The notes beneath the pieces are model-generated. The model ran no database searches and was not told the origin of the DNA. It was given only the letters and a program-made list of their open reading frames with translations. Shown one piece after another: positions 1,811-14,686 of a stretch of 34,224 bases of DNA. Within the stretch, counting starts at the first letter, position 1, and each line of letters starts with the position of its first letter. This stretch comes from Campylobacteraceae bacterium (GTDB lineage: Bacteria > Campylobacterota > Campylobacteria > Campylobacterales > Campylobacteraceae), in contig JAISXY010000066.1 of the NCBI GenBank assembly GCA_031270285.1, positions 1 through 34,224 on the forward strand. Direction: 5' to 3'. Position numbers and translations under genes: made by a program.

Positions 1811-2305
1811 GTGAAAACTATCTATTTTTTAAGACATGCCAAGTCAGACTGGAGTGTTGAATGCGACGATTTTGATAGAAAATTAAACAAAAGAGGCGAA
1901 AATAACGCACTGTTCATGGCTGAAAGATTGGCAAAATACAAAGTAAAACCCGACATCATCATCTCATCGCCCGCAAAAAGAGCATTAAGCACTGTAAAAA
2001 TCATCGCCGACAGATTAAAACTGCCGAAAAAAGCAGTTGTAACCGATATAAATTTATATCTGACTCCGCCAAAAACTTATCTTGAAGTTATCCGTCAAAT
2101 TGACAACAGCCACAAAATAGTTTTCATGACAGGACACAATCCGACGATTACCGAAATTTGCGAAAGTTTAAGCGGTACGCATATCGGCAATATCCCCACA
2201 TGCGGGATTTTTTGTATGGAGTTTGATACGGAAACTTTCGGCACAATATCAGCAAATGAGGGCAAAAAGATATTTTTTGACTTTCCGAAAAAACATAATT
2301 ATTAA
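1811..2305 (+). CDS. SixA-like histidine phosphatase family protein
   Basis: N-terminal LRHAKSDW (RHG motif) and a later TGHNPTI motif. GTG start. Confidence 0.88.
   Translation: MKTIYFLRHAKSDWSVECDDFDRKLNKRGENNALFMAERLAKYKVKPDIIISSPAKRALSTVKIIADRLKLPKKAVVTDINLYLTPPKTYLEVIRQIDNSHKIVFMTGHNPTITEICESLSGTHIGNIPTCGIFCMEFDTETFGTISANEGKKIFFDFPKKHNY
2247..2300 (+). repeat. Direct repeat copy 1 (3' end of the sixA-like CDS)
   Basis: tatcagcaaatgagggcaaaaagatattttttgactttccgaaaaaacataatt. Matches 2868-2921 with 2 mismatches. Confidence 0.95.
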
Positions 2306-2373
2306 TTTAAAAATAAAGATAAAAATATATAATTTACCAAACAAAACAAGTAAATTCAAAAGAGGTAGTATTT

Positions 2374-2802
2374 ATGTCTAAAAACATTATTTTATCGGTT
2401 ATTTGCGGCAGTCTTATTTTAAGCGGATGCACTTTGTATGTTCCGCCTAAAACCACTCAGCGTGTAACTCCTGTTGAGCCGCTGGGCAGCAAGGAAATTT
2501 GTATCGTTGAAAACCCGAAAGTAAGACCACATTTTTTAGAAGTTTATCAACAGGTGATGGAAAGGAAAGGTTATACGATTACGATTTTAGAGCCGAATGA
2601 GACTGTTGTCTCTTGTCCGATAACTTCAACATATGTTGCCAACTGGGGCTTTAATGGGTTTGCAGCTTTTTTAAGACATGTAACAATAAATATTTTCAAA
2701 GATGGTTATTTAAAGGGTGAAGTGTATTATGAAAATCAGGGAAATTTTGTTAATGGCGAAGAGAAATTAACAGAACTTCTTAACCAATTGTTCCCCTTTT
2801 AA
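2374..2802 (+). CDS. Small lipoprotein, resembles Sbal_3080-type lipoproteins
   Basis: Lipobox LILSGC after a signal peptide (MSKNIILSVICGSLILSGC), 142 aa. SD AGAGG upstream. Confidence 0.75.
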   Translation: MSKNIILSVICGSLILSGCTLYVPPKTTQRVTPVEPLGSKEICIVENPKVRPHFLEVYQQVMERKGYTITILEPNETVVSCPITSTYVANWGFNGFAAFLRHVTINIFKDGYLKGEVYYENQGNFVNGEEKLTELLNQLFPF

Positions 2803-2820
2803 TTCTAATTTTAAAATTCA

Positions 2821-2855
2821 AAAGAGATAGATTTTAGCAATCTGTCTCTTTTTAT
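2821..2855 (+). terminator. Rho-independent terminator after the lipoprotein gene
   Basis: aaGAGATAGATTttagcAATCTGTCTCttttt: long stem with one G-U pair, followed by a T-run. Confidence 0.8.
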
Positions 2856-2867
2856 GCAAAAATCCCT

Positions 2868-2921
2868 TATCGGCGAATGAGGGCAAAAAGATATTTTTTG
2901 ACTTTCCGAAAAAACATAATT
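2868..2921 (+). repeat. Direct repeat copy 2 (orphan sixA 3'-end fragment)
   Basis: tatcggcgaatgagggcaaaaagatattttttgactttccgaaaaaacataatt. Same 54 bp as 2247-2300 with 2 differences, followed by an in-frame TGA. Confidence 0.95.
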
Positions 2922-2989: not shown

Positions 2990-3019
2990 TTAGTTTGAAA
3001 ATTGCAGTTCGCAAACTAA
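2990..3019. other. dif-like palindrome 1 (candidate XerH recombination site)
   Basis: TTAGTTTGaaaattgcagttcgCAAACTAA: perfect 8-bp outer arms, TTGAAAA/CTGCA-type core, about 330 bp upstream of xerH. Confidence 0.75.
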
Positions 3020-3025
3020 AAAAAG

Positions 3026-3050
3026 GTTTGAAAACTGCAATTTTCAATAC
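3026..3050. other. dif-like palindrome 2 (candidate XerH recombination site)
   Basis: GTTTGAAAACTGCAATTTTCAATAC with TTGAAAA...TTTTCAA arms. Same motif as palindrome 1, centres about 33 bp apart. Confidence 0.75.
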
Positions 3051-3349: not shown

Positions 3350-4429
3350 ATGAAATTTCCGATAGACTGCGAGGATGATTTTAACTCCACCCTGCTCTTT
3401 TGGGTATGCCGTTTTGTACGCGCAAAACTAAATTCGCTCTCAAATAAAGAGCTTAGAGACCCAAAAATCCTTCAAAATGTGATCATGGAGCTGACTAAAA
3501 CCACAAAGAGCATAAATGAGCTTGACGAACTTGTCAAAAGTGCCAGAAATGCGGGCTTAACAGGCATAAATACATATTTTACTCCACTCAAAAAACTGTA
3601 CGATATGCTCATTTTTCAAAAGCTTTACTCCATGAAACAGATAGACGAAGAGCTTTTAAGCGACTTTTTGGCAAGCAGCACAGGTGGACTTAGCGATGCC
3701 AGCAAGAAAAATCACAGAATGGCTGTTTTGTCCTTTTTCTCGTATCTTGATAAGCAAAACGAAGAAGAAGGTAAATCGCATGTATATAATATAGAATTGA
3801 AAAATTGGGGCGGAATTGTCGGCAAAAAAGGCGAAAAATTGCCCGAATTTATGAATGAAAACGAATTGAAGCGTTTTTTGGAAGCTATAGACAACTGCCC
3901 TTTTAAAAGCGTTGCTTTGAGGAACAGATTGATAGTAAAATTTATCGTATATACAGGCATTCGCGTTTCAGAGGCTTTGGGGCTTAAAATACGCGATATC
4001 AGCGAAGAAAAGGATTGTTTTGTTTTAAGAATCAGAGGCAAAGGCAATAAATACAGAGTTGTCATGCTAAAGCGGATGTTGGTAGAAAACGAGTTAAAAG
4101 AGCATATCAAAGCGTCTTTGCCAAATAAAGACGGGCTGCTTTTTTGCAACAAAAACGGCGTCAGACTAACGCAAGCTTATGTGAGCCGCATAGTAGAGCA
4201 GATGCTGACGATAGCCGGCATAAGAAAAGAGAAAAACGGCGCTCACATGTTAAGACATACATTTGCCACCCTGCTCTATCACAGAAGAAAAGATATAGTC
4301 CTTGTACAGGAAGCTTTGGGGCACGCAAGCCTCAATACTTCGCGTATTTATACCCATTTTGACAGCAATAAACTCAAAGAAGCAGCCAATGTAACCGAAG
4401 AGTTTATAAAAGATAAAATCAAAAAATAA
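3350..4429 (+). CDS. xerH: Tyrosine recombinase XerH
   Basis: Phage-integrase catalytic motifs (YTGIRVSEALGL, HMLRHTFATLL, LGHASLNTSRIYTH). N-terminus MKFPIDCEDDFNSTLLFWVCRFVRAKLNSLSNKEL resembles Campylobacter XerH. Confidence 0.92.
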   Translation: MKFPIDCEDDFNSTLLFWVCRFVRAKLNSLSNKELRDPKILQNVIMELTKTTKSINELDELVKSARNAGLTGINTYFTPLKKLYDMLIFQKLYSMKQIDEELLSDFLASSTGGLSDASKKNHRMAVLSFFSYLDKQNEEEGKSHVYNIELKNWGGIVGKKGEKLPEFMNENELKRFLEAIDNCPFKSVALRNRLIVKFIVYTGIRVSEALGLKIRDISEEKDCFVLRIRGKGNKYRVVMLKRMLVENELKEHIKASLPNKDGLLFCNKNGVRLTQAYVSRIVEQMLTIAGIRKEKNGAHMLRHTFATLLYHRRKDIVLVQEALGHASLNTSRIYTHFDSNKLKEAANVTEEFIKDKIKK

Positions 4430-4440
4430 AGCGGATAAAT

Positions 4441-5076
4441 TTGGAATTTCACATATGGCTTACGATGCTTATAGCATCTTTCATTATCAGTATCTCTCCT
4501 GGCGCGGGCGCTATAACGACCGTAAACAGCGCTTTAAATTATGGTTTTAAGCGTTCATTCGCCGCCATAATCGGTCTGCAAACAGGATATTTGATACAAA
4601 TAATTATAGTTTGTATCGGACTTGGCGGTATTATAGCCGCATCCGCACTGCTTTATAATATCGTCAAATGGTTTGGCGTTTTATATCTTATATATCTTGG
4701 CTTCATGCAGTTTCGCGCTTCTTCTGCTCATTTTAAGCGCGAAAAAACAGGTACGGAAAAAATATTTAAATTCTCATCTTTATTTAGTAAAGCCTGCCTT
4801 ATAAATCTTACCAATCCAAAAGCTACTATTTTTCTTTTAGCTTTTATACCGCAGTTTTTATCTTCCGACAAACCCCAGTTTATACAGCTTGCAGTCATCT
4901 GCACTACTTTGATTTGCGTTGATTTTATGGTGATGAGTGGCTATGGCGCACTTGGTCAGGCTATCAAAAAACGCATGAATAACAGTAAATTTATGCGTAT
5001 TCAAAATAAAATAACCGGCGCAGCTCTTATCGCCGCCGCACTGTTTTTGGCGCAAAGTAGTATTTCACAGGGTTGA
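4441..5076 (+). CDS. LysE/RhtB family amino-acid exporter
   Basis: ISPGAGAITTVNSALNYGFKRSFAAIIGLQTGYL and ACLINLTNPKATIFLLAFIPQF are LysE-type signatures. TTG start. Confidence 0.9.
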   Translation: MEFHIWLTMLIASFIISISPGAGAITTVNSALNYGFKRSFAAIIGLQTGYLIQIIIVCIGLGGIIAASALLYNIVKWFGVLYLIYLGFMQFRASSAHFKREKTGTEKIFKFSSLFSKACLINLTNPKATIFLLAFIPQFLSSDKPQFIQLAVICTTLICVDFMVMSGYGALGQAIKKRMNNSKFMRIQNKITGAALIAAALFLAQSSISQG

Positions 5077-13720: not shown

Positions 13721-14686
13721 TTAAGAGTGTCCCTGCTCTTTTTTGAAAAAAGATGAAATTTTTGCCTGCATTTTCAACCACTCTTTGTGAAGCATGATAG
13801 GAAAACCGCTGTATGTTTTGCCGCCTTCAAGAGATTTGCTGACTCCTCCGCGCGCCGCGATAACCGCAAAATTCCCTATCTTCAAATGTCCTGCCGTTGC
13901 GCTTTGTCCGCCCATGACAACATTTCTGCCAAGTACGGAAGAGCCCGCAAGACCTGTCTGTGAAACGATGATGCAGTGTTCGCCAAGTTCGCAATTGTGT
14001 CCTATTTGGACGAGATTGTCTATCTTTGTCCCCTTTTTTATCAGTGTGGAACCAAAAACCGCTCTATCTATCGTGGTGCATGCGCCTATCTCCACATCAT
14101 CTTCCAAAATCACATTTCCAAGATGATAAATCTTCACATGCGCACCCTCTTTTGTATGCGCATAACCAAAACCGTCGCTGCCTATAACACAGTTTGACAG
14201 CAGATGACATCTTTTGCCTATAATAGAGTTATTGTAAATGACAGCGTTAGGGTGGATTGTCGTACCCTCTTCTATCGTAACATTTTCGCCGACATAAGCT
14301 CCCGCCATAACAGTAACGCCCGCTTTTATGACCGTACCGTTTGCGATATGGGCATTTGGCATGACAATGGCGCTCGGGTCAATCTGCGGCGGCTTTTGCA
14401 CCGAGCCTACAATATCATGAGCGAACAGTTTGGTCAAAAACGCCATATCCAAATGCGGATTTTGACTTATGATGACAGAACAGCCTTTTGGAAGAAATGA
14501 ACGGTGTTTTTCCAAAACTATGGCAGCGCCCGCTTTTGTACATTTAAGAGTATCCAAAAATTTTTCGTTTTCAAGATAAACTATATGTTCGTCCGAAGCG
14601 TTTTGTATCGCTTGAAGCCCGCTTATTTCCCTATCTTCTCCTTCATAACTCCATGAGAGTTTAGCGCAAATATGAGAGAGTTTCAT
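13721..14686 (-). CDS. lpxD: UDP-3-O-(3-hydroxyacyl)glucosamine N-acyltransferase
   Basis: Left-handed beta-helix hexapeptides, GSDGFGYAHTKEGAHVKIYHLGNVILEDDVEIGACTTIDRA. Confidence 0.95.
   Translation of the reverse strand: MKLSHICAKLSWSYEGEDREISGLQAIQNASDEHIVYLENEKFLDTLKCTKAGAAIVLEKHRSFLPKGCSVIISQNPHLDMAFLTKLFAHDIVGSVQKPPQIDPSAIVMPNAHIANGTVIKAGVTVMAGAYVGENVTIEEGTTIHPNAVIYNNSIIGKRCHLLSNCVIGSDGFGYAHTKEGAHVKIYHLGNVILEDDVEIGACTTIDRAVFGSTLIKKGTKIDNLVQIGHNCELGEHCIIVSQTGLAGSSVLGRNVVMGGQSATAGHLKIGNFAVIAARGGVSKSLEGGKTYSGFPIMLHKEWLKMQAKISSFFKKEQGHS

Follow-up and report, generated by a model that had tools for sequence, protein, structure and literature searches.

A duplicated sixA 3' end and an accessory lipoprotein gene beside the XerH/difH locus of a Campylobacteraceae bacterium

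The sixA-xerH interval and its direct repeat

The window that we analyzed is a 34,224-nucleotide stretch of DNA from a Campylobacteraceae bacterium, whose genome (G000) is assembled into 106 contigs with a total length of 1.5 Mb. The gene order at the locus is rhomboid, sixA, lipoprotein gene, two difH-like sites, xerH and a lysE-type exporter gene, and the features described here, from the rhomboid gene through xerH, lie on the + strand. The upstream neighbor of sixA is a rhomboid protease gene (1231-1773; Pfam Rhomboid, 6.4e-21) with a clade-A-like sequence. The sixA-like gene itself (1811-2305) encodes a histidine phosphatase (His_Phos_1, 2.5e-13; TIGR00249 below the cut-off) and is a mosaic, as discussed below. 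It is followed by a lipoprotein gene (2374-2802) with the lipobox LSGC, the Sbal_3080-like product of which narrowly missed the cut-off of the NF040519 model (E 8.5e-20, 71.5 bits against a cut-off of 80). The gene for XerH, the chromosome dimer resolvase, is located at 3350-4429 (Phage_int_SAM_6, 1.1e-55; Phage_integrase, 2e-34). The dif-like sites that had been noticed near the repeat are real and lie about 300 bp before xerH: the first (GTTCGCAAACT, 2991-3017) has an altered right arm and five mismatches to the genus consensus, and the second (3024-3050) has four mismatches. The two form an inverted pair (2991-3050, 33 bp apart) that is predicted to fold into a hairpin of -26.1 kcal/mol (z -7.5). 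The other congeners each carry a single site.

The 3' end of the resident sixA (2247-2300) recurs as an orphan copy at 2868-2921, confirming the 54-bp repeat that prompted this analysis. The copies are identical at 52 of the 54 positions with a spacing of 621, and consist of an exact 46-bp part (2255-2300 and 2876-2921) preceded by 8 bp that match at 6/8. Both mismatches (2251/2872 and 2254/2875, each A/G) fall in third codon positions, giving TCA/TCG and GCA/GCG. The 46-mer is by a wide margin the longest direct repeat in the window; the longest repeats arising by chance in 30 order-2 Markov simulations of the window were 14-18 bp. A search of the whole G000 genome recovered the two copies only (E 1.7e-19) and no third. 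The lipoprotein reading frame is the only one of at least 60 aa on the + strand between the copies, and the gene has its own terminator there as originally proposed, namely a hairpin followed by a T-run at 2820-2852 (-14.6 kcal/mol, z -4.1). This hairpin is A/T-rich and was missed by a simple terminator scan.

The orphan copy does run into an in-frame TGA, but this is weak evidence because the match already takes in the T, and in AT-rich sequence the next two bases would complete a stop in about a quarter of cases by our estimate. Likewise, two transitions would both fall in third positions about one time in nine, so the synonymous nature of the differences carries little weight. We also considered whether the repeat could be an artefact, produced by misassembly or by the mixing of strains in a metagenome-assembled genome. 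The genus-mates of G000 are metagenome bins, presumably of termite-gut material judging from their sample-style names, and the junction can be checked only with reads. An artefact is nevertheless improbable: the k119 names of sister contigs suggest assembly words longer than 54 bp, by which such a repeat would be resolved, the copies differ at two bases, and their unique flanks differ on both sides.

The lipoprotein gene and XerH/difH in relatives

We compared the locus with eight congeners of G000, using one genome per species. The sixA gene is present in 9/14 genomes of the genus, G000 included. The lipoprotein gene directly follows sixA in G000, G007 and G008, with 80% aa identity among the orthologues, and is missing from G004, G005 and G012, each of which has an intact sixA-difH-xerH interval with one sixA tail at the locus and so provides a single-copy empty site. 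In G001, G009 and G011, sixA is followed by other genes. The lipoprotein gene is accessory at the sixA site, and this part of the original prediction, the variable gene, stood. Its remaining parts, that the repeats are the ends of an integrative element, that the orphan is the tail of a divergent sixA allele and that a Xer recombinase was involved, were not supported.

On the element ends, the decisive genome is G007, which carries the lipoprotein gene at the same place as G000 (80% aa, 82% nt) with a single sixA tail. There, the lipoprotein gene and its terminator follow sixA, and phage-like debris separates them from difH. Both the terminator of G000 and the spacer between sixA and the lipoprotein gene can be aligned with their counterparts in G007, which places the right border of the lipoprotein gene outside the repeat. 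The repeat is thus not the border of the insertion, or not one that persists. In G008 the contig stops inside the lipoprotein gene, so that this genome adds nothing on the point and may have a second sixA tail beyond the contig end. A search of the genus for the sixA-tail pattern returned one true tail per genome, except in G000 and G005; extra matches in G001 C47 and G012 C23 proved to be unrelated sequence.

The lipoprotein gene seems to be a long-standing resident in its carriers. The identity between G000 and G007 is 82% for the lipoprotein gene (nt), 83% for xerH and 85% for rpoB, suggesting that the gene has behaved like its neighbors in divergence since it was gained. The sixA genes of the three carriers form a clade (80/90), from which we conclude that sixA and the lipoprotein gene are old companions. 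More distant relatives of the lipoprotein (37-40% aa) are encoded between infC and rpmI/rplT in G005, G012 and G010 (L124, L125 and L127), all three of which are without the sixA-side copy. We considered a mutual exclusion of the two genes, for which the numbers are too small.

The role assigned to the nearby recombinase was not borne out. A xerH gene is present in 10/14 genomes of the genus at no less than 83% aa identity, and wherever the two were read, difH precedes xerH by 300-800 bp, with or without the lipoprotein insert. In Campylobacter jejuni, difH is 215 bp from the recombinase gene. The locus in G000, with difH about 300 bp before xerH, is ordinary by comparison with the dimer resolution systems of Carnoy and Roten (2009), and XerH and difH are the usual chromosome-dimer resolution pair of the group. 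Judged by its sequence, the XerH/difH locus has no part in the sixA repeat. What sets G000 apart is the unusual inverted pair of difH-like sites. We found no difH-like sequence (at least 16/26) in the orphan copy. The insert is not bounded by difH-like sites, as an XerH/difH-dependent, IMEX-like element would be; both sites lie outside it. Since XerH is an ordinary difH partner and the repeat holds no difH-like site, its proximity is no evidence that it moved the lipoprotein gene.

These observations bear directly on the idea of a minimal integrative element, site-specific for the sixA 3' end, that rebuilds this end on insertion and is moved by the nearby Xer recombinase. As in known elements that target tRNA or protein genes, the 3' end of a gene is duplicated on the far side of the insert; the direct repeat spans that end and the reading frame is restored, a tyrosine recombinase is close by, the gene is missing in some relatives, and G005 has an ectopic sixA tail beside a lipoprotein remnant that ends at nearly the same base. 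Unlike those elements, however, the G000 insert has no integrase between the repeats and no excised form, and the same insertion is found in G007 without the second repeat. No other cargo between sixA tails is seen in the genus, XerH belongs to difH, and the G005 insert lies at an unrelated locus with a sixA fragment of about 280 bp. We regard such an element as very unlikely. The comparison cautions against taking every direct repeat of a gene 3' end as the sign of a mobile element.

Origin of the orphan sixA tail

The orphan copy matches the resident sixA at 52/54 positions and the best relative, G007, at 46/54, with all eight relatives at 46/54 or less. The TCG/GCG pair, which had been taken to mark a divergent allele, occurs in the sixA of none of the eight, with TCG alone found in several; at the second mismatch codon, G007 has GCA, as in the resident sixA. 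At the species level, the sequence of the second copy was absent from the sixA of every sister, an outcome that the original prediction had itself named as refuting it. The sequence comparison establishes that the orphan copy derives from the sixA of the G000 lineage itself. The lipoprotein gene differs between G000 and G007 at 18% of bases, and the repeat has accumulated no differences in 46 bp; the duplication is therefore much younger than the arrival of the lipoprotein gene. At the species level, this establishes their order, gene gain and then copy.

We consider it likely, though well short of certain, that an older gain of the lipoprotein gene beside sixA was followed by a later, lineage-specific illegitimate copying of 46-54 bp of the sixA tail, an event that resembles insertion with long target duplication or homology-facilitated illegitimate recombination. 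First, an ancestor of the carriers would have gained, between sixA and difH/xerH, a small lipoprotein gene that came with a promoter region and a terminator of its own. Later, in the G000 lineage only, a stretch of about 46-54 bp from the end of sixA would have been copied to a position just past the lipoprotein terminator. We infer that the copying was illegitimate, either through template switching in repair or through a homology-facilitated illegitimate crossover with closely related DNA. Both mismatches lie within the outer 8 bp of the repeat, and this clustering fits a junction in short imperfect homology. Homology would have been available in sixA, and the motif TATC.GC. at the left edge is a possible short homology. 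Against this reading, the 69 bp that separate the orphan copy from difH have no match in any relative; comparison with phage remnants and with the sequence downstream of sixA in lipoprotein-less relatives gave nothing beyond the level of shuffles. In G008 C10, a weak match to the orphan (p 0.003, 20 tests) proved to be an A/T-rich alignment of 25 bases and was discarded. The orphan copy has neither a start codon nor a recombinase site and is probably inert. The locus would represent a small, well-dated example of short ectopic copies arising beside accessory genes.

Another finding also counts against a copying accident. An independent ectopic tail occurs on G005 C29 (L121:3696-3950), where an indel-decayed stretch of about 280 bp from the 3' half of the resident sixA lies between dfx and udg, the flanking genes for desulfoferrodoxin and a uracil-DNA-glycosylase-like protein; in most other members of the genus, the dfx-udg gap is a short intergenic stretch. 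The fragment is joined to the main part of a lipoprotein gene without a signal peptide, the product of which shares 29% aa identity with the lipoproteins encoded after sixA in G001. The right edges of the G000 and G005 copies are at most 1 nt apart in sixA coordinates, a coincidence that chance explains poorly; both copies adjoin unrelated small lipoprotein genes and start shortly after a terminator. The rarity of ectopic sixA tails speaks for the copying scenario: apart from G000, G005 is the one credible case in the 135 genomes of the family that have sixA. In G104, a fragment of the C-terminal part of sixA was considered as a third case and rejected, since it lies at the edge of a contig and was not copied from the sixA of G104. 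In principle, the sixA 3' end could serve preferentially as donor or crossover site when small lipoprotein genes move in this genus, an enzyme-less and undescribed route of mobility, but we give this only a slim chance. With only two cases, we claim no mechanism.

The main rival to the copying of the lineage's own sixA tail is a strain-level insertion with long target duplication, in which incoming DNA was anchored by homology in sixA and its other end was joined illegitimately inside the sixA tail of the recipient, so that the old tail stayed behind as the orphan. Lipoprotein-less loci occur in the genus, and such an event would yield the observed arrangement directly, with both differences synonymous and an in-frame stop at the end of the orphan. 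In the rpoB tree, G000 branches close to the base of the clade holding G007/G008 and G001/G005, and the rhomboid tree groups it with G011/G004/G012 at 100/99, in conflict with that position. Across 1231-1773 and 1811-2305 the phylogenetic conflict is strong, the rhomboid gene going with G011/G004/G012 and sixA with G007/G008. Within sixA, the sequence of G000 is G007-like in its 5' and 3' parts and G012-like in the middle (permutation test, p < 0.0005 against G012; not significant against G004 or G011). The mosaic and the tree conflict indicate that lineages have exchanged DNA at this locus, making a homology-facilitated event plausible, and for this reason we retained the insertion as the main rival.

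Precedents for such an insertion are the long target duplication of Helicobacter pylori and homology-facilitated illegitimate recombination in competent bacteria. Nobusato et al. (2000) are reported to have described the insertion of restriction-modification genes with long target duplication in H. pylori, a member of the same bacterial class. The likeness lies in a small unit of genes with host sequence of some tens of bases directly repeated on either side, and an insert with a long flanking host repeat is what G000 has (54 bp, 52 identical). In H. pylori, the empty single-copy allele is reported from another strain of the species, whereas here the gene occurs in a congener that lacks the repeat, in a comparison of one genome per species. 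Homology-facilitated illegitimate recombination is known from Acinetobacter, Streptococcus and Pseudomonas stutzeri and has been proposed for the immunity arrays of the Vibrio T6SS (PMC5361080). There, as would be the case in G000, the 5' part of the anchor gene is kept, a new gene follows it and the old 3' piece is displaced downstream; G000 differs in having no foreign effector module and in that the displaced piece is near-identical to the resident end. The insertion also requires a lipoprotein-less allele near-identical to the present sixA, and none was seen in the eight relatives. In addition, the sequence after the orphan is unlike that after sixA in lipoprotein-less relatives, and nothing in this scenario predicts that both differences should fall in the outer 8 bp. 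On balance, we judge a strain-level insertion to be unlikely, though deserving more serious consideration than the other alternatives.

Prophages at difH

The locus matters more than the repeat, as the sixA-difH interval is a turnover hotspot in the genus, where small lipoprotein genes and prophages resembling tailless phages come and go beside XerH/difH. In G001, a tailless-phage-like prophage block of about 9.2 kb (4746-14002 of L092, which is G001 C11:6000-22777, after reverse complement) lies between a half difH (TTTGAAAAGTGTAGAATGCAAAAC, at 4746) and a full difH (TTTGAAAAGTGTAGTTTTCAATAC, at 13977). The block encodes a replication initiator (phrog_678, 2.9e-24), a packaging-type ATPase (phrog_2666, 5.9e-23), a lysozyme-like protein and a 319-aa capsid candidate with a weak likeness to P2 of PM2 (Pfam P2_C 1.2e-4, below the cut-off; phrog_28223, 4.5e-13). 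The capsid candidate had no match among 50,697 phage records or solved structures. No integrase was recognized among the open reading frames of the block, and it was probably integrated by the host XerH.

Phage genes or relics also adjoin difH in G008 (C10:1-3841, L093), G011 (C80:3874-4603, L094), G013 (C55, L095) and G005 (C27, L035). A possible phage-like frame in G007 (C55:4160-4670, L031) was recognized by eye only and had no tblastn match. From its position beside these genes, difH looks like an integration hotspot in the genus. Vibrio is known to carry tailless prophages at dif; our literature search found no published report of tailless prophages at difH. In G005 C27, the orientation of difH relative to xerH is opposite to that in all other congeners. 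The altered right arm of the left difH-like site in G000 resembles the phage-side half site of G001.
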